Shown: positions 20,589 to 41,781, counted from the stretch's first letter. The stretch: DNA of 42,099 bases from Ktedonobacterales bacterium (GCA_025935195.1 JAICVS010000019.1:1-42099); one strand, 5' to 3'. Numbers and translations are program-made. The notes: generated by a model from the sequence alone, not told the origin.

Positions 20589-20644
20589 GGCTGCTGCTCG
20601 ACACCCATAGCTTCCTGTGGTTTATCCGCCCTCGGCTGGCCTGA
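20585..20644 (+). pseudogene. 5' stump of a VapC-like PIN toxin
   Basis: Only 19 codons remain: GTG then RLLLDTHSFLWFI, the first strand of a PIN domain with its first catalytic Asp, then a switch to unrelated RPRLA and a stop. The switch falls at about 20622-20626, which is also where the 3' end of the large minus-strand membrane gene begins. The rest of the toxin is not seen within the next few kilobases. A rearrangement that removed the toxin and brought in the neighbouring gene explains this. Confidence 0.75.
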
Positions 20645-23021
20645 GCGTTGGGGGCAGAGAGGCGGATGGAGACGGCGGGGCCGGGGTCAGCGATTGGAGG
20701 AGCGCTTTCGAGACGGCTGGGGACTCTGGCCCGAACAGGTGGCGCAGGAGGAAATACTCTGGGAGCGGGTGATCGTCGGTGACAAGCGGCCCAGCGCCAG
20801 CGAACGCCGCGACCTGATCCCCCTGGATCCAGACGAGCCTGGGGATCAGCGATGCCCAGCCGCTCACATCGTGTTCGGGTGAGTCGATCGCCGAAGAGAT
20901 GTCCTGAACGATCCGTGGCCGGCTGAGCACCTGGCGGATCGCGGCGGGGTCGAAGGTGATCGGCTGGTCGGAGCCGAGCATGAAGAGGCCGTTGCTTCCA
21001 GGCCCGAAGGCGATGATCACGTGCGGAAAGACGTTACGATACGTCCGCACATGCGCCTTGAACTCGTCCACCGTCTGACCATAGGGAATCCATTGCATCA
21101 TCACTCCGCCTGGATTCAGGCGCGCTTTCGCCGCCGCGTAGAATTCGCGCGACGAGATCACCGACACGCCGGAGGTATAGATCGGTGGCGGCGGATCGAC
21201 CACGATGATGTCGTAGCGGTGGTCGGTCAGCTCGACGAAGTTGCGCCCGTCGGCAATGACGACGTGGCCCCTGGGATCGGATAGCACCTGATGGGCGTCG
21301 GGGTAGAAGACGTCGAGCATCTGCGGGACCGACGGGACGAGCTCCACTGCCTCCGCGGTCAGCCCAGCGTTCAGCGCTCCCCGGTACGCCGACCCCATCC
21401 CGAACGCGATCGTCAGGTCGGTCCGGGAGCGCGGGCGGAGCATCAGCGGCAGAATTGGCATCAGCTTGGCGTCCACCGTCAGGCTGGTCATCGAGGTGCC
21501 GGCGACCCACAACTGCGGAGTGCCGTTGATGGCGCCGGCCTGGACGGAGGCGATCTCGTCCTCCGCGGAGCGCGAGATGATGCCGTGATGCGCGCGGAGC
21601 CAGGCGACATTCGGGTCGAGGAAGACCTCACCGCTGGTGAGGGCGACCACGAGCATGGCAGCCGCCACCGCTCCTGCTGTCGCCGTGATCGTGCGAAGGA
21701 AGCGCGGCTCGATGCGACCGGCAAGGGCGAGGGCGATGCCGGTGCTGACATTCAGGAGGGCGATCAGGCCAACCGCGACCGGCGAGCCGACGAGCGGGAT
21801 CACGACGAACGGGACGAGGAAGGTGCCGGTGATGGCGCCGAGCGTGTTCGCTGAGAGGAGGAGGCCGGTATTCGAGCCGACGTGCCCATCGGGATCGGCG
21901 ACCAGGGCGGAGGCGGCGGGAAACGTCAGGCCCATCACGAAGGTCGCCGGCAGGACCACGACCATGAACACGGCGAGCTGGCTAAGCTGGCTGGCCAGCG
22001 AGCGGAACGTCGCTGCCAGCGCGAGCAGCCCGGAGCTACCGTCGCCGATCAGGATGACCATCCCCAGCAGCACGAGGAGCGCGATGGCGATCTGACCGAA
22101 GGCCAACAGGTTGAGCGTGTGGATGCGCGCACGGAAGGCGTTGAAGGTCGCCGCCCCGAGCGCGAGACCGATCAGAAAGATGGCGAGGATCATCGTGAAG
22201 ACGTAGGTGGAGTTGCCTGTTCCCGATGCGAGCAGCCGTGTCCAGAGCACCTGATAGCCGAGCGAGGTCAAGCCGGAGACGAAGGCCACGATCAGCGCCA
22301 GCCGCACGCGCGGATGCGTCTTCAGGTCCGCGGTGGCGCTCGTCTCCGGCGGGGTCGCATGCCGCGCCAAGGGAGAAGCGATCTTCGCGGCGGCCGCCGG
22401 CTGGCCTTGCGCGCGGTCGAGCAGAAGCGCCACGCTCCCCGCGATTGCTGAGCAACCGACCCCAACGAGCAGCGTGCCGGTCAGCCCCACAAGCTCGATG
22501 AGGATGAAGCCGGCCGCAATCGTCCCAAGGATCGCCCCGAACGTGTTCGCGGCATAGAGCCGGCCGAACGCCAAGCTCAGGCCGGCGGAATCGCGTGACA
22601 GGTGGCGGGTGAGCGTGGGGAGGGTCGCGCCCATCAGGATGGTGGCTGGTCCGAGCGCCAGGAGCGAGAGGCCGAAGCGGACGAGCGCCAGGAGCTGCGG
22701 ATCGGCCACCAGTGAGTCGAACACCCCGCGGTAGATCAGGTGGAGGAGCCGGAACGTGACCGGCGTGAGCAGCACGATTACGACGAGGAAGAGCTCGAGC
22801 AGGCCGTACATCCGCAGCGGACGGCGGACGCGATCGGCGAGCCTGCCGCCGAGCGCACTGCCGATGGCCATGCCGCCGAAGAAGCCTGTGAGGATTGCCG
22901 AGACCGCCTGTGTCGTATTGCCGAAGACGAGGACGAGCTGGCGTCCCCAGACGACCTCATAAACCAGCCCGGCCGCGCCAGACAGGATGAAGATCCCAAA
23001 CAACGGCCAGCGGCGGCTCAT
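20622..23021 (-). CDS. Fused membrane/spermidine-synthase-like protein
   Basis: The protein has about 799 residues. The N-terminal two thirds has 14 or so hydrophobic segments, beginning with the family pattern ILSGAAGLVYEVVWGRQL and including a second, similar SGLTSLGYQVLWTRLL, as in fused MFS/SpeE-like proteins. The C-terminal third is a Rossmann methyltransferase-like SpeE domain (DLTIAFGMGSAYRGAL, ELVPSVPQML, YDIIVVDPPPPIYTSG, LNPGGVMMQWIP). The nucleotide-binding glycine motif is altered from GGGDG, so synthesis of spermidine is doubtful. ATG 23021 has AGGAGA upstream; ATG 23057 is possible. The 3' end abuts a broken toxin gene. Confidence 0.85.
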   Translation of the reverse strand: MSRRWPLFGIFILSGAAGLVYEVVWGRQLVLVFGNTTQAVSAILTGFFGGMAIGSALGGRLADRVRRPLRMYGLLELFLVVIVLLTPVTFRLLHLIYRGVFDSLVADPQLLALVRFGLSLLALGPATILMGATLPTLTRHLSRDSAGLSLAFGRLYAANTFGAILGTIAAGFILIELVGLTGTLLVGVGCSAIAGSVALLLDRAQGQPAAAAKIASPLARHATPPETSATADLKTHPRVRLALIVAFVSGLTSLGYQVLWTRLLASGTGNSTYVFTMILAIFLIGLALGAATFNAFRARIHTLNLLAFGQIAIALLVLLGMVILIGDGSSGLLALAATFRSLASQLSQLAVFMVVVLPATFVMGLTFPAASALVADPDGHVGSNTGLLLSANTLGAITGTFLVPFVVIPLVGSPVAVGLIALLNVSTGIALALAGRIEPRFLRTITATAGAVAAAMLVVALTSGEVFLDPNVAWLRAHHGIISRSAEDEIASVQAGAINGTPQLWVAGTSMTSLTVDAKLMPILPLMLRPRSRTDLTIAFGMGSAYRGALNAGLTAEAVELVPSVPQMLDVFYPDAHQVLSDPRGHVVIADGRNFVELTDHRYDIIVVDPPPPIYTSGVSVISSREFYAAAKARLNPGGVMMQWIPYGQTVDEFKAHVRTYRNVFPHVIIAFGPGSNGLFMLGSDQPITFDPAAIRQVLSRPRIVQDISSAIDSPEHDVSGWASLIPRLVWIQGDQVAAFAGAGPLVTDDHPLPEYFLLRHLFGPESPAVSKALLQSLTPAPPSPSASLPPTLRPAEGG

Positions 23022-23421
23022 AGCATCTCCTGTGCGGTCAGGGTCGAACAAGCGCATCGGAACCTCACTCCATCGTCGGGACGCCAGGGCGCGAGTGGGA
23101 CCATCAGGACTGTCAGGACGGTATCAAGCTACTTCCTGGTGTTACCCAGCCTTGGCGATAGTAGAGCAGGAGCGGCATCTTTCATACCCTCCGCGACCAA
23201 AGGTACTTGTGGGAACGGAATCTGAAGGCTACGAACTGGCCCAGCGCCGATCACGGCGCTCGTCGCGGTCGCGCGCGACTTCCCATGTGCCATTGTCCGC
23301 GCGCGGCGGCCTCGACGTATACTGTGGGAGCCATTGGTTACGACGCTCGATCCGGTCATAGAGCCGGCGGCTAGATACGTCGTGGCAGCGCGGATGACGC
23401 GAGACAGACGGGAGGTGTGAC
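23022..23421. other. Divergent spacer between the SpeE-like gene and osmC
   Basis: No gene was recognised. It must hold the two divergent promoters. GTATACTG (23319-23326) is a possible -10 for osmC, with no clear -35. No remnant of the missing PIN-toxin part was found here. Confidence 0.3.
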
Positions 23422-31975: not shown

Positions 31976-32052
31976 CAACAGGTGATCAACAGATGACACA
32001 GATGATCATTCGCGTAGGATGATCATCTGTGTCATCTGTTGATCACCTGTTG
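31976..32052. repeat. Perfect 34-bp inverted repeat between convergent genes
   Basis: Bases 31976-32009 and 32019-32052 are exact reverse complements around a nine-base loop (TCGCGTAGG). The arms carry TGATCA twice each and the pieces AACAGATGACACAGATG / CATCTGTGTCATCTGTT. It lies between the membrane-protein gene (plus) and the small membrane gene of the redox cluster (minus). It could act as a two-way terminator, though no T-run follows. Confidence 0.9.
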
Positions 32053-32094: not shown

Positions 32095-32463
32095 TTACCA
32101 GCGGCGCTTGGGGCGCTTCGGCAGCAGGCGCAGGATGAGCAGGCCGCCGAGGAAGACGAGGCCGGAGATGGCGGCAGCGAGCCAGGTGGCTTCGGGGCGG
32201 CCGCTCAGATACAGGTCGAGCGCGACGGTCAGCAGCCAGAGCTGGATGCCCATCAGGATCATGCCGATGGTCAGGCCGGCCAGCACGATGGCCGCCTGGC
32301 CGTGTGAGGGCGCGCGGCGCGCGTAGGCCGTCGTCTCGCTGAGGGCGCGGCCATCTATACTATCCAGGCCGCCGTGACCGTCCGCGCCGTCCAGCCGCGC
32401 GCGTGTATGGCCGCGCGCCTCGCGCATCTCACGCATGTCGCGCATCTCAGGCGTCTCGCTCAT
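32095..32463 (-). CDS. Small two-helix membrane protein of the redox cluster
   Basis: The 122-residue protein has a charged N-terminal half (MSETPEMRDMREMREARGH...) and two transmembrane helices: AAIVLAGLTIGMILMGIQLW and WLAAAISGLVFLGGLLILRL, ending in basic PKRPKRRW. The ATG overlaps the Rieske gene stop (ATGA), so it is translated with the cluster. It could be a small subunit or assembly factor that holds the Rieske protein. No known family is claimed. Confidence 0.75.
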   Translation of the reverse strand: MSETPEMRDMREMREARGHTRARLDGADGHGGLDSIDGRALSETTAYARRAPSHGQAAIVLAGLTIGMILMGIQLWLLTVALDLYLSGRPEATWLAAAISGLVFLGGLLILRLLPKRPKRRW

Positions 32464-33002
32464 TGGGGCGCCTCCTCGGTGGCGACGAGGGTGTCGCCCT
32501 CCTGTCGCAGCGTGATGCGCGGCAGGGGACGCTGCGGCGGGCCGGCGATGGGGTCGCCCGTCTCTGGATCGAAGACGCCTTCGTGGCAGGGGCAGAGTAG
32601 CTTGTTCTGGCGCGCGTCGAAGTAAACGGCGCAGGAGAGGTGGGTGCAACGGCCGCTATAGGCGACGAACTGGCCGTTGGCGAGGCGCAGCAGGATGGCC
32701 TGTTCATCCCTGGGCGTGTACTCGAAGTATTTGACTCCGCCGGGCGCGATCTCACCGACGCGGGCAATGGCGATGCGGCCGCTGGTGCGCGGCGGGCGGA
32801 GCTGGCCGAGCGCGGCGATGCCGGCGGTGGCGGCGAAGAGCGCGCCGGAGGCCAGCACGGCGAAGCGCAGCAGCTCGCGGCGCGAGACCACATCGTCGGC
32901 GTCCCAGTGATAGGGGAACTCGGCCTGCCAGCGCGTGCGGCGCGGGCCGGTGGGCGTGCGGCCGGGCGCGGTGAAGACCTGGCGGTCGCTCGGCGTCGTC
33001 AT
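32460..33002 (-). CDS. Rieske [2Fe-2S] protein with Tat-like anchor
   Basis: The 180-residue protein binds a Rieske cluster by C119-T-H121 and C137-P-C-H140; C124 and C139 are placed to form the disulfide seen in bc1/b6f Rieske proteins. Before the domain, SRRELLRFAVLASGALFAAT (40-59) is a twin-arginine signal/anchor, so the domain should be outside the membrane. The ATG at 33002 overlaps the ferredoxin stop (ATGA) and has AGGAGG ten bases upstream; ATG 33011 is less well placed. No cytochrome b of bc1 type is nearby; its partners are the molybdoenzyme subunits. Confidence 0.9.
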   Translation of the reverse strand: MTTPSDRQVFTAPGRTPTGPRRTRWQAEFPYHWDADDVVSRRELLRFAVLASGALFAATAGIAALGQLRPPRTSGRIAIARVGEIAPGGVKYFEYTPRDEQAILLRLANGQFVAYSGRCTHLSCAVYFDARQNKLLCPCHEGVFDPETGDPIAGPPQRPLPRITLRQEGDTLVATEEAPQ

Positions 33003-33628
33003 AGGACCCATGCCTCCTCGCGCGGGCGCGCGCCAGCGCGCTGTTGGGCGCTCGCTTCATCCAGCAGCGCGGAGATGTCGAGCTTTTGCGTCTCGTCGGG
33101 CAGCACGAAGTAGACGCGCGTGCGCACGCTCTGCTCGCCGAATGCCGTCAGGTTGGCGGGATGGCCGACGCGCGAGTTGGCGAACTCCTCGTAGTCGCCG
33201 TACCAGAGCGCGTGCGTGGGGCAGACCTGGGAGCAGTAGGGCTGCACGCCCTGGCTGGTGCGGTCGTAGCAGAGGTTGCACTTCTTCATCAGCCGCGCCT
33301 GAGTGTCGAACTTGGGGACGCCGAAGGGGCAGGCGTAGACACAGTTGCGGCAGCCGATGCAGCGCGACGGCTCGGCCATCTGCACGACGCCGTCCGGCGT
33401 GATCAGGATCGCCAGCACGGGGCAGACCTGCGCGCAGGGCGCGACGGGGTCCTGGCAGTGCATGCAGACGGTGGGCTGGGTGGCGACGCTCAGGTCGCGA
33501 TCCATGAAGTCCACCATCACCATGCTCTCGCCTTTGTGCGAGTCGCACTCGCGGCAGGCGGCTTCGCACGAGCGACAGCCGATGCAGCGCGAGGGGTCCA
33601 CGAAGAGCGTTTTGACGGCCGCGGCCAC
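32999..33628 (-). CDS. Four-cluster [4Fe-4S] electron-transfer subunit
   Basis: The 209-residue protein is of the DmsB/NrfC/HybA type. Four Cys groups are visible: C15-C18-C21-C25, C55-C58-C65-C69, C90-C93-C96-C100, C117-C120-C132-C136, enough for four cubane clusters. There is no signal peptide, so it is cytoplasmic. It should pass electrons between the molybdoenzyme and the membrane cytochrome. The start is GTG 33628 with AAGGAGG upstream. It lies 18 bases after the molybdoenzyme gene. Confidence 0.92.
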   Translation of the reverse strand: MAAAVKTLFVDPSRCIGCRSCEAACRECDSHKGESMVMVDFMDRDLSVATQPTVCMHCQDPVAPCAQVCPVLAILITPDGVVQMAEPSRCIGCRNCVYACPFGVPKFDTQARLMKKCNLCYDRTSQGVQPYCSQVCPTHALWYGDYEEFANSRVGHPANLTAFGEQSVRTRVYFVLPDETQKLDISALLDEASAQQRAGARPREEAWVL

Positions 33629-33646
33629 GGCGCTTCCCTCCTTCCG

Positions 33647-36049
33647 CTAGAACGTCTTGCCAGCCTTTTCGGGCGGGGCCTTGGTTTCGCCCACGGCGTA
33701 TGGGAACATCTTGGGCGCGTTGGCCGGCGTGAAGTTCTCCGTCGCGCCGGATGTGATCGCCGTCGTCGCGGCGTCCGCGCCCGCCGTGGCCGCGCTCACC
33801 GCCGCCGCCGCCCTGGCCGTCTCGGCGGTCTCGACCACAAAGGGCGTTGCCGCTGTCGTGGCCGCCGGGGTGGCGGCGAGCTTCTCGACGCGGGCGGCGC
33901 AGGCCTTGTACTCCGGAATCTTGACGGTCGGCTCGACGGCGGGGTTGGTGAGCTGGTTGGCGGCGAGCCGGTGGCCCCAGTGGTAGGGGATGAAGATCGT
34001 GTCGGGGCGGATGGTCGGCGCGATCAGCGCCTTGACCTCCATCGCGCCGCGCGGCGTGGCGACGCGCACGATCTCGTCGTTGGCGATGCCCAACTGATCG
34101 GCTAGCCGGGGGTGAATCTCCACCCACGGCTCCGGCGCCTGCGCGAGCAGGAAGCCCAGGCGGCGCGTCTGGTTGCCGCTGAGATAATGATAGACGACGC
34201 GGCCGGTGGTCAGGCGCAGCGGGAAGGACTCGCCCGGCTCCTCGGCGGGCGGCGCGTAGGGGATGGGGAACATCTTGGCGCGGCCGTCGGGGTGGGCGAA
34301 ACGCTCGGTGAAGAGGCGCGGCGTGCCGGGGGAGTCGAGCGTGGGGCAGGGCCAGAAGACGCCGCTCTGCTCGTCAATCTTCTCCCAAGTGATGCCATAG
34401 TAGTCGGAGACGCCGCCCTTGGAGGCGAGACGCAGCTCGTCCCAGATGGCGCGCACGTCGCGGTAGGGGAAGAATTTGCCACGACCGAGCCGCTCCGCCA
34501 GCTCGACGGCGATCTGCCAGTCGGGCTTGGCCTCGCCGGGTGGGGCCACCGCCTGATTGGTCTTGATGACGCGGCCCTCCAGGTTGGTGGTGGTGCCTTC
34601 GTCCTCGCACCAGACGGTGCCGGGCAGCACCACGTCGGCCAGCTCGGCGGTCTCGGAGAGGAAGAAGTCCACCACCACCAGCGGATCGAGCTGTCGCAGC
34701 GCGCGCTGGACGACGGCGTTGTCGGGCAGCGAGACCATCAGGTTGGAGCAGACGACCATGCAGCTCTTGATCGCGCCCTCGGCCATGAGATGGACCATCT
34801 CGGTGGCGGCGGCGCCCTCCCACGGCAGCTCCGCGACGGGGATGCCCCAGAGGTCGGCGATGTACTGGCGGTCCTCCGGCACGTCTATGTGGCGGTAGCC
34901 GGGGAGCTGGTTGGCTTTCTGGCCGACCTCGCGCCCGCCCTGGCCGTTGCCCTGGCCGGTGATCATCATCGCGCCGCCGCCGGGCTTACCGAGCTGGCCG
35001 CGCGCCAGCGCCAGGTTGATGCAGGCCAGCACGTTGTTGACGCCGTGGGTGCTGTGCTCGATGCCGCGCGCGTGCATGACGAGCGAGGGATCGGCGCGAC
35101 CGTAGAGGCGGGCGGCGGCGACGATGCGCTCGGCGGGTACGCCGCAGAGGCGCTCGGCGGCCTCCGGGGTGAACGGCGCGACGGCGGCGCGCACCTCGTC
35201 CCAGCCGTTGGTGCGGGCTTTCAGGTACGCCTCGTCCACCAGGCCATCCGTGATGATCTGGCGCAGCAGGGCGTTCAGGAGGGCGGGATCGGTGCCGGGC
35301 TTGACGGGCAGCCAGAGGTCGGCGGTGCGCGCGAGCGGCGTCTCGCGCGGGTCCACCACGATCAGCGCGGCGCCACGGTCGCGCGCCTGCCAGATCCACT
35401 GCATCATCACGGGGAAGCATTCGGCGACGTTGGAGCCGACGACGAGCATGGCGTTGGTGAGCGGGATGTCGGTCATGGGCAGCGGCGCGCGGTCAATGCC
35501 GAAGGCGCGGGCGTAGCCGGCGGCGGCGGATGACATGCAGAGGCGGCCGTTGTAGTCTATGTGGCGGGTGGCGAGGGCGACGCGGGCGAACTTGCCCATC
35601 ACGTAGCACTTCTCGTTGGTCATGGAGGAGCCGCTGTAGATGGCGACGGCGTCTTTGCCATGCTCGGCCTGGATGCGCTGCCAGCGCGAGACGACGTAAT
35701 CGAGCGCCTCGTCCCAGCTGGCGCGCTCCAGCGTGCCGCCCTTGCCGCCGCGACGAATCAGGGGGTAGAGCAGGCGGTCGGGGTGGCCGGCCTGCTGGTA
35801 GGCGACGACACCCTTGGGGCAGAGCTTGCCGCGGTTGTGTGGGAAGTCGCGCGCCTCGACGCCGATCACCTTGCCGTCCGCGACTTTGAGGTACATGCCG
35901 CACTGCACGCCGCAGAAGCAGCAGTGGGTCGGCACGAGCGTGTCTGGCACGCGGTTGGCGTCGGTCCAGCCGGGGGCAGGGTGGCCGGCGGACTCGAAGT
36001 CGTAGTTGAAGTCACGTTGTGGGTCGAAGAAGTCTTTATTGACGCTCAT
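33647..36049 (-). CDS. Molybdopterin oxidoreductase, NasA/NapA-like catalytic subunit
   Basis: The 800-residue enzyme of the DMSO-reductase superfamily binds one [4Fe-4S] by C43, C46, C50 and C77 (CCFCGVQCGMYL, GKLCPKG) and Mo-bis-MGD. The likely Mo ligand is C171 in GRLCMSSAAAGYARAFG, the pattern of assimilatory and periplasmic nitrate reductases rather than formate dehydrogenases. TGQGNGQGGREVGQKANQLP and the C-terminal VYHYLSGNQTRR/HWGHRLAANQLTNPAVEP complete the cofactor site. No Tat signal is present, so it is cytoplasmic. An Ala/Thr-rich tail of about 70 residues is added at the end. Nitrate is the best guess for substrate; others are possible. Confidence 0.9.
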   Translation of the reverse strand: MSVNKDFFDPQRDFNYDFESAGHPAPGWTDANRVPDTLVPTHCCFCGVQCGMYLKVADGKVIGVEARDFPHNRGKLCPKGVVAYQQAGHPDRLLYPLIRRGGKGGTLERASWDEALDYVVSRWQRIQAEHGKDAVAIYSGSSMTNEKCYVMGKFARVALATRHIDYNGRLCMSSAAAGYARAFGIDRAPLPMTDIPLTNAMLVVGSNVAECFPVMMQWIWQARDRGAALIVVDPRETPLARTADLWLPVKPGTDPALLNALLRQIITDGLVDEAYLKARTNGWDEVRAAVAPFTPEAAERLCGVPAERIVAAARLYGRADPSLVMHARGIEHSTHGVNNVLACINLALARGQLGKPGGGAMMITGQGNGQGGREVGQKANQLPGYRHIDVPEDRQYIADLWGIPVAELPWEGAAATEMVHLMAEGAIKSCMVVCSNLMVSLPDNAVVQRALRQLDPLVVVDFFLSETAELADVVLPGTVWCEDEGTTTNLEGRVIKTNQAVAPPGEAKPDWQIAVELAERLGRGKFFPYRDVRAIWDELRLASKGGVSDYYGITWEKIDEQSGVFWPCPTLDSPGTPRLFTERFAHPDGRAKMFPIPYAPPAEEPGESFPLRLTTGRVVYHYLSGNQTRRLGFLLAQAPEPWVEIHPRLADQLGIANDEIVRVATPRGAMEVKALIAPTIRPDTIFIPYHWGHRLAANQLTNPAVEPTVKIPEYKACAARVEKLAATPAATTAATPFVVETAETARAAAAVSAATAGADAATTAITSGATENFTPANAPKMFPYAVGETKAPPEKAGKTF

Positions 36050-36061
36050 GCGTGGCTCCCT

Positions 36062-37174
36062 CTAGAGAAAGCGTTTGCCCATGAGGCCGTAGTAGGCCTG
36101 GCCGCGCAGCACGCGCTTGCAGGTGGGGCAGTAGTCTTGCAGGGCGCCGTGGTCGCCGCCCAGGTCGTAGTGCTGGCCGAGATCGTTGAGCGTCGCTTTG
36201 AGGTCGGTGACGAATTGCTCGGAGGGCAGCTGCTGGCCGCAGCGCTTGCAGCGGCCGGTCTGGGGTTGGGCGCCGTAGTGCTCGATATCCTGATTGACGG
36301 TCTGGTAGAGGGTGACGCCGATGCTGGCGGGGCGCTGGATGATGTGGAAGAACTTGCCGAAAGGGATGGAGATCAGCCAGAGCACGACGACGGCCTGATG
36401 GGTGAGCGAGATGAACCAGTAGAAGCGGCCGGCAAACCAGGCGGAGTCGGCGGTGAGGGCGAGGCCGGTGACGGCGATAGCGACGAGCAGCACCAGCGGC
36501 ATGAGGTCGAAACCGAAGCGCTGGATGACGAGCAGGCCGGCGTTGACCAGGCGGCGCCAGAGGGCGATGGTGAGGCCGACGATGAGCAGCACGGCGCTGA
36601 AGTCCAGCGCGTGGAAGATGGCGAAGCCGGTGCCGGCGGCGATGGGGAAGGTGAAGATGGGGAAGCCGAAGAACCAGGCCTGGTAGCCATCGGGCGGGAT
36701 GAGCGTGAAGCGGATCCAGCCGAAGGTGAGCGGGAGGGTGACGGCGAGCGAGAGGATGACACCCCAGAAGATGCACATGTGCATGATCCAGCGCAGCGCG
36801 CCGCGCTTGAGGATGAAGGTCTGGGCGAGGATGTCGGTCCACCAGGCTTTGGGGATGAGCAGGGTGTAGCGCAGGAAGTTCTTGACGGAGAGGAAGTTGA
36901 CCCAGCCGGCCTTGAAGTAGCGCCAGGTGGGCGGGCGGCCGATCCAGAGGGTGTAGCGGTAGGCCAGCGCGGCGACGGTGAAGACGGTGGCGACGGCGTA
37001 GCCGATCAGCGCGGAGTCGAAGTCGCGCAGGCCGCGCGAGCCGATGGCGATCAGCACGATCAGGCCCAGCGCCGCCAGCGTGGCGATGATGCGCGCGGAT
37101 AACTCGGCGCGGCGCGCGGGTGTGGCGCGCTGGCCCGCCTGTGTGGCCTCTGGCGCGCGCACGGTGCGTTGCAT
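36062..37174 (-). CDS. NarI-like cytochrome b membrane subunit with zinc-ribbon tail
   Basis: The 370-residue protein has about six helices. Candidate heme ligands are H132 (RWIMHMCIFWGVI), H188 (FAIFHALDF), H259 (ISLTHQAVVV) and H277 (PFGKFFHII), the NarI/DsrM/HdrE-type pattern including the PFxKxxH motif. After the last helix a soluble region has C309-x2-C312 and C349-x2-C352, a zinc ribbon or rubredoxin-like site. It should exchange electrons with quinone and the ferredoxin subunit. The ATG at 37174 has GGAGG upstream; the frame is open to 37282. It is the first gene of the cluster, 12 bases before the molybdoenzyme gene. Confidence 0.85.
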   Translation of the reverse strand: MQRTVRAPEATQAGQRATPARRAELSARIIATLAALGLIVLIAIGSRGLRDFDSALIGYAVATVFTVAALAYRYTLWIGRPPTWRYFKAGWVNFLSVKNFLRYTLLIPKAWWTDILAQTFILKRGALRWIMHMCIFWGVILSLAVTLPLTFGWIRFTLIPPDGYQAWFFGFPIFTFPIAAGTGFAIFHALDFSAVLLIVGLTIALWRRLVNAGLLVIQRFGFDLMPLVLLVAIAVTGLALTADSAWFAGRFYWFISLTHQAVVVLWLISIPFGKFFHIIQRPASIGVTLYQTVNQDIEHYGAQPQTGRCKRCGQQLPSEQFVTDLKATLNDLGQHYDLGGDHGALQDYCPTCKRVLRGQAYYGLMGKRFL

Positions 37175-37548
37175 GTGCGGCCTCCTCATCCCTGCGCGGG
37201 CGCGCTCGCTCGCCCGTATCCGTGCTGGCCTCTGCCGCAAGAGCGATACCGCTCTTGTAGAGAGCGTACTCCATTGGGCCACGCGCCGCCCAACTCATCA
37301 TGTCACATTGTGGTCACGGTGGGTTCTCAACCTCTCTCACCCTCCCTTTGTGAGCGCAGGGGAACGCGGCGGCGACCGGCCGGTGAAAGGGGACGCGCGC
37401 GATGTGTGAGGAACCTGTGATGTGAGGCGTTGCGGGGCGTGAGGCAACTGTGAGCCGGAGCGACGATAGTGAATGGACGAGAGTGGATGCGGACCCGCGC
37501 GGGCCGACTCATTCCGTACGCGCACTATTCACGAAGGAGAAATGCTCT
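37175..37548. other. Divergent regulatory region between redox cluster and hemerythrin gene
   Basis: The 374 bases separate two divergent transcripts. Besides the dyad at 37238-37266 it holds GTGAC repeated at an 11-base interval (37302-37317, minus) and a G+C-rich stretch with several TGTGAGG/CTGTGA-like repeats (37400-37455). No clear sigma70 promoter pair was found for either side. No FNR-type TTGAT-N4-ATCAA was found. Confidence 0.4.
37238..37266. promoter_or_regulatory. Triple AGAGCG/CGCTCT dyad, operator candidate
   Basis: CAAGAGCG (37238-37245), ATAC, CGCTCTTG (37250-37257) form a near-perfect 20-base palindrome. The CGCTCT half (37250-37255) can instead pair with AGAGCG at 37261-37266. 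It lies 64-92 bases upstream of the cytochrome b start, a usual place for a regulator. Confidence 0.4.
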
Positions 37549-38055
37549 ATGCCCCGGATCACTCAGCCGCTACGCGACGAACACAAGGAGCTGCTGCCGC
37601 GCGTCGAGACGTTACGCGCGGCGGCCGACTGTATCGGCGCGGCGCCCGTTACGGAGCTTCGTGACGCGGTGGACGCGGCGTACACCTTCCTGGACGGCCA
37701 CCTCATCCCGCACGCGAAGGCGGAGGAGGCGGCGCTCTATCCAATGGTCGCGCGGATGATGGGCGCGCGCGAGGCGACGGCGACGATGATCCGCGAGCAT
37801 GTCGAGATCGGCCGCATGGTCACGGAGCTGGGCGTGTTGCGCGGGCGACTGGGCGGTGAGACGCTGACGCCGGTGACGGCGAACTATCTGCGCTACGTGC
37901 TCTACGGCCTGCACGCGCTGGTGAAGATGCACTTCTTCAATGAGGAGGAGGTGTTCCTGCCGCTGCTGGACGCGCGGCTGGGCGAGGCTGAGGCGCGCGA
38001 GCTGTTCGCGCGCATGGAGCGCGTCGCCCACGAGGCGATGGCCGGCGCGCGCTGA
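37549..38055 (+). CDS. Hemerythrin HHE cation-binding protein
   Basis: The 168-residue four-helix protein carries the HHE pattern: H12 (DEHKELL), H51 and H55 with E59 (GHLIPHAKAEE), H84 (REHVEIGRM), H122 and H128 with E132 (LHALVKMHFFNEEEVFLPLL). Such residues bind a di-iron site used for oxygen or NO sensing, storage or iron-sulfur repair. The ATG at 37549 has AAGGAG ten bases upstream; the frame is open to 37450. It is divergent from the molybdoenzyme cluster, which fits a link with nitrogen oxides or oxygen, but this is inference. Confidence 0.85.
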   Translation: MPRITQPLRDEHKELLPRVETLRAAADCIGAAPVTELRDAVDAAYTFLDGHLIPHAKAEEAALYPMVARMMGAREATATMIREHVEIGRMVTELGVLRGRLGGETLTPVTANYLRYVLYGLHALVKMHFFNEEEVFLPLLDARLGEAEARELFARMERVAHEAMAGAR

Positions 38056-38760: not shown

Positions 38761-41700
38761 TCAGCCGTCGCCGGTGAGGCGCAGCACGGGGTATTCGGCA
38801 GTCTCGTCGCGGGTGAGCGCGCCGGCGGCGATGAGGGCGTCAATCTCGCGGCGGATGCGGGCTTCGCTGGTGCCGCTGAGGGCGGCGAAGTGGGGCGAGC
38901 GGGCGGCGGAGGCGCCGGTGTTGGCGGAGCCGCGCAGGATGCGGATCAGGCCGGTGACGCCGACGGCGTAGGGCAGGTCGCGCAGGCAGGTGAGGATCGT
39001 CTCACGGATATCCGGCTCGTCGTGGGCGGCGACGCGGCCATCTTGAAGGCGCTCTTGGCGGCGGGCGCGGCGGGCCTCACGCGCGGAGACGGCGGTGCCG
39101 CGGCAGGTGTCGCAGACGCCGCAACGGGCGACGGGGAGGCGCTCGCCGAAGTGGCGGGCGATCATGCGCGGGCGGCACTCGCGCGCCTGGGTGAAGGCTT
39201 CCAGCGCGGCGATCTGGCGCTCGTGGCGCTCGGCCAGGTCGTCCAGCAGGGCGGGGAGGGTGGCGCGGCCGTCCGGCGGGGGCGGGAGCAGCTCCAAGAG
39301 CAGGTCGCGCGCGCCATCGCGATAGGCGAGCAGGCCGGCGTCGCGCCAGGCGAGCAGATGCTCTTCCAGCACGGCGGGGGTGGTCTGAAGCTGGGTGGTG
39401 AGAGCGACGAGATCGAGGGTTTGCACGTCGTTGGGACGCAGGCGCGCGGCGGCGAGGAAGGCGGTGAGGGCGGGATCGGTGGATGAGGCAGACGAGGCGG
39501 CGGGGGCGATCAAGCGGACTTCGGGGGCGCGAGGAACGTCGGGATGGCGCAGCAGGAAGCCGCAGCGTTCCAGCAGACTGAGGGCGACGCGGGCGCCGGT
39601 CTCGTCCACGCCGCGCGGGCGGTGCTGGCTGTTGGCTGGAGCGCTGGCCTGGATGGCGTCGCTGACGTCGCGCTCCAGGTCGGCGGCGGTGACACGGCCG
39701 GCACGCGCGCCGGCGGGGGCGCTGGCGCGGATGAGGTCACGGGTGGTGGCGTAGACGGCGCGCAGTGTCTCGATGGGCAATTCGTCGCCGCGGATGTGGC
39801 GGCGCAGGGCGGTGACGTCGGAGGTGGAGGCGAAGAGCACGCAGCGCGAAGGGCGGCCGTCGCGCCCGGCGCGGCCGGACTCCTGAGCGTAGGCTTCGAG
39901 CGAGCCGGGAAGCTGGTAGTGGACGATGAAGCGTACGTCGGGCTTGTCTATGCCCATGCCGAAGGCGACGGTGGCGACGACGACGCGGGCGCGGCCGGCG
40001 ATGAAGTCGTTCTGGGCGGCGTCGCGGTCGGCGCGCTCCATGCCGGCGTGGTAGTGCAGCGCGCGCACGCCGCAGCGGCGGCGCAGGAACTCCGCCACCT
40101 CTTCGCAGCCGTCGCGCGAGCGGACGTAGACGATGCCGCTGCCGGATGTCTCTTTGACGATCGCGGCCAGGGCGCGCAGGCGGTCCTCGTTGTTGGCGAC
40201 GTGGACGACCTCGTAGGCGAGGTTGGGGCGGAAGACGCCGCGATTGACAATGCGTAGCGGACGGCCGAGCGCGTCGCCGATGCTGGCGCGCACGTCGGGT
40301 GTGGCGGTGGCGGTGAGGGCGAGGACAGGGATGTGAGCGCCGCCATCCGCTTCGAGGGCGCGCAGTGCCTTGGCGATGAAGAGGTAGTCGGGGCGGAAGT
40401 CGTGGCCCCACATGCTGACGCAGTGCGCCTCGTCCACGACGAAGCGGGCGACGCCGGCGCGGCGCAGGGCGTAGACGAAGGACTGCTGGCGCAGGCGCTC
40501 CGGCGCGGCATAGACGAGCTTGTATGTGCCGGCGGCGATGTCCCGCAGGCGTCGGTCCAGCTCGTCGCGGTCCACCTGGCTGTTGACGACGGTGGCGCGC
40601 GCGCGGACGGCGGCGGGCAGCCCTTCGAGCTGGTCTTTCATCAGGGCGATGAGGGGAGAGATGAGGACGGTGGTGCCGGGGAGCAGCAGGGCGGGAAGCT
40701 GGTAGCAGAGGGACTTGCCGGCGCCGGTGGGCAGCAGGGCAAGCACGTCTTCGCCGCGCAGCACGGCGGCGATGATGGTGGATTGGCCGGGTAGGAAGCT
40801 GTCGTAGCCGAAGTGGTCGGCGAGGGCTTCCAGCAGATCGTCGCCGGGCGGCTCCTCAGGCTCGTCGGCGGTGGGCGGCGGCGCGGTGTCGTCGCCGGCT
40901 GGATCATCGTCCTGCGCATCGGCGAGCTTGGCGGCGCGGGCGATGCCGACACGGCGTGAGGCGCGCGAGAGGCGTCCGGTGGGCGATACCGCGGCTGGGT
41001 CGCCGCCATGCAGGGCCAGATCGAGCTGGAAGCGCAGCCGCTCGGCCTCGTGCGCATTCAGGGCGGCGCGGCGGGCGGCAAGCTCGTCCGCCCAGGCGGA
41101 TTCACCCAGGCGGCGGGCAATACGCAGGGCTTCGTCCAGCACCCAGGCGGAGGGGGCGTCGCCATAGGCGGCGAAGACGCGCGCCACCAGCTCGCTCGCG
41201 CTGGCGGTATCGCCCTCGCGGGCGCGACAGTCGGCCAGGCCCAGCAGGGCGCGGGTATTGTTGGGATAGAGGGCGAGCGCGCGCTGGTAGGCGGTGACGG
41301 CGGCGTGCGTGTCATCCTCGGCGAGGGCGACGGCTCCGGCGATCAGCCAGGGCGTGAGGCGGTCGCCGTCCTCGCGGGTGAGCCGCGTGGCGATGGCGCG
41401 GGCGTCTGCGATGCGGTCGAGGGCAAGGTATGCCTCGGCCAACGCCTGGTGGGCGGCGAGCGCGTCGCTGCGCTCCAGGCGCGCTTCGAGGATCGCGGCA
41501 GCGTCCGCATGGCGGCCGAGGGATGCCGCCAGCTTCGCCAGATCGTCGTCCAGCCGGACGGTGTCGCCAGCGAGTGGGCGCAGGGTGTCAAAGATGGACG
41601 CGGCGAGGGTGCGGACGCGCTCGTCGTCGTCGTAACGGGCGAAGTGGAGCGCAAGGGAACAGGCGAGGGCGACGGGCAGCCGCGCCAGCGTGGCGGCGTC

Positions 41701-41781
41701 GAGCGCGCCGTCGGGGCCGGTGAGGAGAGAGAGCAGAGACGCGGTTGTTTCAGAGCTGGTGGTAGTCAATGGTGGCCTCAT
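38761..41781 (-). CDS. RecQ-family DNA helicase with N-terminal TPR-like region
   Basis: The protein has 1006 residues; typical RecQ is about 600. Residues 1 to about 250 are helical repeats of TPR character (AVTAYQRALALYPNNTRALL, GLADCRAREG). An acidic Pro-rich linker (290-315) follows. The helicase has LLPTGAGKSLCYQLPAL (Walker A, 349-365), VVDEAHCVSMWGHDFRPDY (448-466), LALTATATP, GIVYVRSRDGCEEVAEFLRR and VAFGMGIDKPDVRFIVHY, QESGRAGRDGRPS. A zinc site follows in ECRPRMIARHFGE and CGVCDTC. It should unwind branched DNA in repair. The ATG at 41781 lacks a clear Shine-Dalgarno; the exact start is uncertain. Confidence 0.9.
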   Translation of the reverse strand: MRPPLTTTSSETTASLLSLLTGPDGALDAATLARLPVALACSLALHFARYDDDERVRTLAASIFDTLRPLAGDTVRLDDDLAKLAASLGRHADAAAILEARLERSDALAAHQALAEAYLALDRIADARAIATRLTREDGDRLTPWLIAGAVALAEDDTHAAVTAYQRALALYPNNTRALLGLADCRAREGDTASASELVARVFAAYGDAPSAWVLDEALRIARRLGESAWADELAARRAALNAHEAERLRFQLDLALHGGDPAAVSPTGRLSRASRRVGIARAAKLADAQDDDPAGDDTAPPPTADEPEEPPGDDLLEALADHFGYDSFLPGQSTIIAAVLRGEDVLALLPTGAGKSLCYQLPALLLPGTTVLISPLIALMKDQLEGLPAAVRARATVVNSQVDRDELDRRLRDIAAGTYKLVYAAPERLRQQSFVYALRRAGVARFVVDEAHCVSMWGHDFRPDYLFIAKALRALEADGGAHIPVLALTATATPDVRASIGDALGRPLRIVNRGVFRPNLAYEVVHVANNEDRLRALAAIVKETSGSGIVYVRSRDGCEEVAEFLRRRCGVRALHYHAGMERADRDAAQNDFIAGRARVVVATVAFGMGIDKPDVRFIVHYQLPGSLEAYAQESGRAGRDGRPSRCVLFASTSDVTALRRHIRGDELPIETLRAVYATTRDLIRASAPAGARAGRVTAADLERDVSDAIQASAPANSQHRPRGVDETGARVALSLLERCGFLLRHPDVPRAPEVRLIAPAASSASSTDPALTAFLAAARLRPNDVQTLDLVALTTQLQTTPAVLEEHLLAWRDAGLLAYRDGARDLLLELLPPPPDGRATLPALLDDLAERHERQIAALEAFTQARECRPRMIARHFGERLPVARCGVCDTCRGTAVSAREARRARRQERLQDGRVAAHDEPDIRETILTCLRDLPYAVGVTGLIRILRGSANTGASAARSPHFAALSGTSEARIRREIDALIAAGALTRDETAEYPVLRLTGDG

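Follow-up and report, generated by a model that had tools for sequence, protein, structure and literature searches.

What would a molybdenum enzyme without an export signal do together with a cytochrome b and a Rieske protein that is anchored in the membrane? This question is raised by five genes in a draft genome of a Ktedonobacterales bacterium, found in a stretch of 42,099 nucleotides (the window). A first-pass annotation had proposed that they encode a single membrane complex.

Layout and distribution of the cluster

The five genes lie tightly packed on the minus strand, running from 37174 to 32095, and the window sequence and family matches confirmed every gene that had been claimed. The first (36062..37174, 370 aa) starts at an ATG at 37174, preceded by GAGGAGG, and ends at 36062; it encodes a NarI-like, putatively diheme cytochrome b with a C-terminal four-Cys domain (CxxC...CPxC). 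After a gap of 12 nt comes a Mo-bisMGD catalytic subunit of the NasC type (33647..36049, 800 aa, no signal peptide), and after another 18 nt a DmsB/NrfC-like subunit with four [4Fe-4S] motifs (32999..33628, 209 aa, GTG start, no signal), which we call the ferredoxin. The gene for a Tat- and membrane-anchored Rieske [2Fe-2S] protein (32460..33011, 183 aa) starts at 33011 or 33002, overlapping the end of the ferredoxin gene, and ends at 32460. Its stop is overlapped, as ATGA, by the last gene (32463-32095, 122 aa), whose product is a small membrane subunit of the DUF6755 family (PF20540) with two predicted helices and a QLW motif. Directly after the DUF6755 stop, between convergent ORFs, is an inverted repeat at 31976-32052 with perfect 34-bp arms (100% complementary) and a 9-nt loop (-64.8 kcal/mol, z = -10.7), of which there is no second copy within the window. 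This hairpin probably ends the operon transcript. A hemerythrin-domain gene at 37450-38055 is divergent from the operon; we considered it as a sixth member and rejected it, as no counterpart turned up in the stretches fetched for other clusters.

The host belongs to the class of Ktedonobacter, Thermogemmatispora, Dictyobacter and Thermosporothrix. A strong match to the Mo enzyme is present in 31 of the 47 genomes of this class, a count that takes in plain NasC copies, and of 400 Chloroflexota genomes, 48 match the cytochrome profile. Scanning species genomes, we obtained 80 loci in Chloroflexota, Acidobacteriota (Pyrinomonas, Bryobacterales), Streptomyces and its relatives, Phycisphaerae and Obscuribacterales, with a few further loci known by their MAG record labels, and the cluster is also carried on Deinococcus plasmids. 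The cytochrome, Mo enzyme, ferredoxin and Rieske genes follow one another in the same order at 70 of 82 loci; nine of the remainder run off a contig end and three are decayed. The fifth gene was checked separately, in 24 sequences, and all 24 products, drawn from across the phyla, match DUF6755 (E <= 0.01). An arrangement that returns unchanged in several phyla is not due to chance. Relatives that mostly lacked the Rieske and two-helix genes would have told against a defined system, and almost all clusters keep both. The conserved order thus supports the proposal of one conserved membrane complex, whose parts would also assemble physically.

The window genome is approximately 88% complete with 3.6% contamination. 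Its Mo enzyme gene (33647-36049) is 75-81% identical to its counterparts in family f4 and in further Chloroflexota, versus approximately 60% to those of its own family (f1), which points to horizontal transfer or to a mis-binned contig. Our general conclusions rest on the other genomes. Decayed clusters, with genes missing or internal deletions, are found in Ktedonobacter racemifer (L131), as a second copy in Dictyobacter aurantiacus (L130), and at L228 (genome G038) and L229 (G144). Thermosporothrix hazakensis has two five-gene clusters (L115 and L118) approximately 120 kb apart on one scaffold. In Dictyobacter kobayashii (L136/L232) the Mo enzyme gene is in three stretches or frames, indicating either a pseudogene or sequencing errors.

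Family and active site of the molybdenum enzyme

The best model for the Mo enzyme is NCBIfam NasC, with a score of 816.9 bits against a curated cut-off of 1100, which an assimilatory NasC of the same class also fails to reach (850.5 bits). Other nitrate reductases and arsenite oxidase fit far less well: the NarG-type model (TIGR01580) is absent among the 25 families listed for the enzyme, NapA scores 270 against a cut-off of 930.6 and the sequence has no Tat signal or other signal peptide, and AioA (TIGR02693) scores 146.5 against 359. The second-best model is the formate dehydrogenase alpha subunit (TIGR01591, 642 bits), close to its cut-off of 666, and the five top PDB matches are all formate dehydrogenases. 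These scores raise the question of whether the complex is instead a formate:quinone oxidoreductase, in which formate is oxidised at the Mo site and its electrons reach quinone through the cytochrome. Such a reading would also suit the Streptomyces loci, as pyruvate-formate-lyase, a source of formate, adjoins the cluster in 22 of 28.

The active site argues otherwise. All full-length five-gene enzymes compared carry the Mo ligand stretch NGRLCM and a second active-site stretch TGQ(G/A)NGQGGRE (TGQGNGQGGRE in the window), whereas formate dehydrogenases have Cys/Sec-His and RGQNNVQG at these sites. In other words, every one of these five-gene enzymes has Met in place of the His that follows Cys/Sec, and Thr in place of the Arg of RGQNNVQG. 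In a maximum-likelihood tree of 48 rows, in which locus L196 was labelled NasA on the strength of its motifs, the five-gene enzymes are monophyletic (100/98). Their sister group is made up of NasC enzymes whose genes accompany those for NirB and NirD (100/98); formate dehydrogenases, NasA and NapA fall elsewhere in the tree. On active-site residues and tree we reject a formate dehydrogenase identity for the enzyme and, with nitrate or nitrite transporters as the usual neighbours outside Streptomyces, we consider formate oxidation by the complex very unlikely. Another Mo-bisMGD enzyme of the window genome (L006, G000:C190) has an in-frame TGA in a 1090-aa open frame, possibly encoding selenocysteine.

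The membrane and electron-transfer subunits

The cytochrome has no Pfam match, including none to a bc1 family, and only a weak NCBIfam match (QmoC, 22.7 bits). Six membrane helices are predicted. Of four conserved His, three (His132, His259 and His277) do not vary, and the fourth, His188, is present in 31 of 32 sequences. The structure model (pLDDT 88) contains six long membrane helices, with the outer loop 152-180 modelled as a beta hairpin, and the relevant solved folds are mycobacterial EtfD (9ojn, Foldseek probability 1.00) and NarI (0.95), although the E-values behind these matches are weak (0.14 or worse; 0.42 for NarI). Basic residues are dense in loops 80-125 and 207-219 and in the C-terminal tail, so by the positive-inside rule these segments should be cytoplasmic. 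This prediction puts both termini in the cytoplasm, and it follows that His132 and His277 would lie near the inner face and His188 and His259 near the outer face. The best reading of the model is that the cytochrome holds two hemes in series across the membrane, as in NarI. One ligand pair is 18 residues apart, as in NarI (His259/277 in the window cytochrome; His187/205 in NarI). The C-terminal tail also has four invariant Cys, which point to a small metal site on the cytoplasmic side. The best fold match and the weak QmoC match both link the protein to the mycobacterial EtfD/HdrE-DsrM-QmoC cytochromes, but these are partnered by HdrD- or ETF-type proteins and not by a Mo enzyme. Two Deinococcus records (L188 8857-9969 and L189 8857-9969) label the cytochrome 'MFS transporter', probably a misannotation.

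The ferredoxin matches Fer4_11 and is of the DmsB/NrfC kind, with motifs for four [4Fe-4S] clusters whose Cys residues are invariant in nine homologues. The last gene product matches DUF6755 at 36.8 bits (gathering cut-off 27). Among the 400 Chloroflexota genomes, 33 encode DUF6755: 29 of these also have the cytochrome, two have internally deleted clusters, and two have pieces at contig ends. Because it is found there only in the cluster or its remnants, DUF6755 can serve as a marker of the five-gene complex in Chloroflexota.

The Rieske protein matches PF00355 and consists of one long helix followed by the Rieske domain, with AioB and the b6f Rieske protein as the nearest solved folds. In all 29 sequences compared, twin Arg residues before the membrane helix and the motifs CTHLxC and CPCHxG with their disulfide Cys pair are invariant; the protein thus shares CTHLxC, CPCH, the disulfide pair and a Tat anchor with Rieske proteins of the bc1, b6f and AioB type. 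Since it combines twin Arg and a membrane helix with disulfide-type motifs and an AioB/b6f-like fold, it should sit on the outer face. The Mo enzyme and the ferredoxin both lack an export signal, which supports a cytoplasmic site for the predicted catalytic reaction. The division proposed in the first-pass annotation, with the Mo enzyme inside and the Rieske protein outside, is therefore upheld.

An outer-face Rieske protein is also what we would expect if the enzyme ran outward, as a nitrite oxidoreductase or other oxidase in which substrate oxidation by the Mo enzyme in the cytoplasm would let the Rieske protein feed an external high-potential carrier. The closest Rieske folds are indeed the Rieske subunits of arsenite oxidases, which are donors to cytochrome c (8ed4 is that complex). 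On neighbour maps, however, we recognised no conserved external carrier gene beside the cluster; specifically, neither a cytochrome c nor a cupredoxin gene is conserved there, and the earlier suggestion that the Rieske protein passes electrons to such a carrier finds no support. Streptomyces and Deinococcus, both among the hosts, are known as heterotrophs, and the linkage to pyruvate-formate-lyase in Streptomyces suggests anaerobic reduction. We regard operation as an outward oxidase as decidedly improbable.

Rieske partners are less foreign to nitrate reductases than had been claimed. The haloarchaeal nar operon encodes a Rieske protein, NarB, and a cytochrome b, NarC (PMC2483277), and Paracoccus NasC receives electrons from the Rieske protein NasG (PMC5424462; also PMC3475470). 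Paracoccus-type NasC with NirB/NirD (NasB/NasG) shares with the five-gene system a sister catalytic subunit, a Rieske partner and linkage to NarK, but its Rieske protein is cytoplasmic, of the NirD type, and NADH-fed through NasB; here the Rieske protein is Tat-anchored outside, and the cytochrome b and ferredoxin take the place of NirB. The haloarchaeal operon likewise joins Rieske and cytochrome b genes to a nitrate reductase, but its catalytic subunit is of the NarG type, with NarGH on the outer face, whereas the five-gene Mo enzyme lacks an export signal. Neither of these Rieske designs has the five-gene composition or topology. A Mo-bisMGD enzyme is also paired with an exported Rieske protein in AioAB, whose AioB subunit is the solved structure nearest in fold to our Rieske protein. 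AioAB, however, lacks a cytochrome b, and all of it is located on the outer face.

Neighbouring genes and the proposed reaction

The first-pass annotation had looked to co-occurrence with nitrate transporters and nitrite reductase. Transporters lie within approximately 800 bp of 31 of the 39 complete non-Streptomyces clusters (NarK in 15, HPP in 12, SLAC1 in 4), and none was recognised within 800 bp of the other eight. Nitrite is transported by HPP proteins of cyanobacteria and chloroplasts (Maeda 2014, as cited in PMC4137279). Of the 28 Streptomyces loci, 25 include narK, 22 pyruvate-formate-lyase and 24 its activating enzyme, and in 11 nirBD also falls within range. As a glycyl radical enzyme, pyruvate-formate-lyase is sensitive to oxygen, and its presence next to the cluster therefore points to an anaerobic setting in Streptomyces.

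Siroheme nitrite reductase is absent from families f1-f3, but is present in f4 and, near the cluster, in some Streptomyces. Specifically, its siroheme nitrite/sulfite reductase domain is found in none of the 11 genomes of the window's family and none of the 18 genomes of f1-f3, although 12 of those 18, including the single-contig genome G017, carry the complex. No f1 genome has NrfA, and eight of the 11 encode NirK-like proteins at approximately 160-200 bits (cut-off 296). The window genome is not among these eight; at approximately 88% completeness it shows two HPP genes, neither adjoining the cluster, no NarK, and none of the nitrite reductase types searched for. Without a siroheme enzyme, nitrite would not be assimilated by the usual route in f1, and nitrate reduction there is probably dissimilatory. 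Because f4 and Streptomyces have nitrite reductases, the role may differ in those groups; where nirBD is nearby in Streptomyces, nitrite may be taken on to ammonium.

These data bear on the alternative that the complex is an assimilatory nitrate reductase fed by quinol in place of NADH. The closest sister clade, assimilatory NasC with NirBD, and the Streptomyces clusters near nirBD are consistent with it. The 12 genomes that carry the complex without siroheme nitrite reductase, from the window's family and its neighbours, speak against it, and the pyruvate-formate-lyase linkage suggests anaerobic use. In addition, several genomes carry, beside the five-gene cluster, a separate assimilatory NasC-NirB-NirD-HemD-NarK operon, so the two are not duplicates of each other. 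An assimilatory role for the complex as a whole is, in our judgement, unlikely.

Our proposal is that the operon probably specifies a quinol:nitrate oxidoreductase bound to the membrane, with its active site in the cytoplasm: a counterpart of NarGHI built on a NasC-type enzyme. Sequence evidence supports the gene set and order, the topology, the cluster and heme ligands, the nitrate-type active site, the transporter linkage and the lack of siroheme nitrite reductase in f1. Like NarGHI, it would combine a cytoplasm-facing Mo enzyme, a multi-cluster Fe-S subunit, a diheme cytochrome b and linkage to NarK. It differs in its NasC-type catalytic subunit, in having a four-cluster DmsB-like subunit instead of NarH, in the added Rieske and DUF6755 proteins, and in that no NarJ gene was seen beside the cluster.

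As to mechanism, we infer a physical complex, the direction of the reaction, quinol as the donor, and roles for the Rieske and DUF6755 proteins. Menaquinol, our assumed donor, would give up its electrons close to the outer face of the cytochrome and release its protons outside. Electrons would then travel inward from the outer heme (His188/His259) to the inner heme (His132/His277) and reach the NasC-type enzyme by way of the four [4Fe-4S] clusters; there nitrate would be reduced to nitrite, to be moved by HPP, NarK or SLAC1-type carriers. The Rieske protein, on the outer face, would most likely accept one of the two quinol electrons and hand it to the outer heme, and DUF6755 would be a dedicated small subunit that probably keeps the cytochrome and the Rieske protein together. 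The overall reaction would be electrogenic. A bolder idea, to which we give some small chance, is that a NarI/EtfD-type cytochrome and a Rieske protein form a quinol-oxidation site unrelated to that of bc1, a second evolutionary solution for separating two quinol electrons, with a dedicated DUF6755 subunit holding the two proteins together and a cytoplasmic nitrate reductase coupled to the site.

A Rieske protein and a diheme cytochrome b acting on quinol are also the layout of a Q-cycle enzyme, and a Q-cycle has been proposed for the haloarchaeal nar operon (PMC2483277). The complex could then be a nitrate reductase with electron bifurcation, sending one quinol electron through the hemes to nitrate and the other through the Rieske protein to a second acceptor. 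We recognised no such acceptor, the cytochrome has no bc1 family match, and a low-potential branch is not needed because nitrate is a strong oxidant; bifurcation is thus very improbable. A bc1-like complex as such was rejected, as the cytochrome has no match to a bc1-type cytochrome b in Pfam.

We found no published description of the five-gene system in the open full-text literature (subscription papers lay outside the search), nor did open literature on DUF6755, on nitrate reductases with a Rieske protein (including one in Deinococcus with NarK), on nitrate in Ktedonobacter or Thermogemmatispora, or on Streptomyces pyruvate formate-lyase describe it, in keeping with its earlier designation as a candidate undescribed system. 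If our reading as a quinol:nitrate oxidoreductase is correct, a nitrate reductase of soil Chloroflexota, Acidobacteriota, Streptomyces, Deinococcus and Planctomycetota would be easily missed in nitrogen-cycle surveys, since the catalytic subunit looks like assimilatory NasC or a formate dehydrogenase and some records list the cytochrome as an MFS transporter. DUF6755 and the Rieske genes of the operon would gain a setting, and the question would arise of why a cytoplasmic nitrate reductase needs an outer-face Rieske protein.

Elsewhere in the window, positions 38761-41781 encode a 1006-aa RecQ-type helicase that carries a TPR region at its N-terminal end, and positions 20622-23057 encode an 811-aa protein in which an MFS-like membrane part is fused to a spermine-synthase-like domain.
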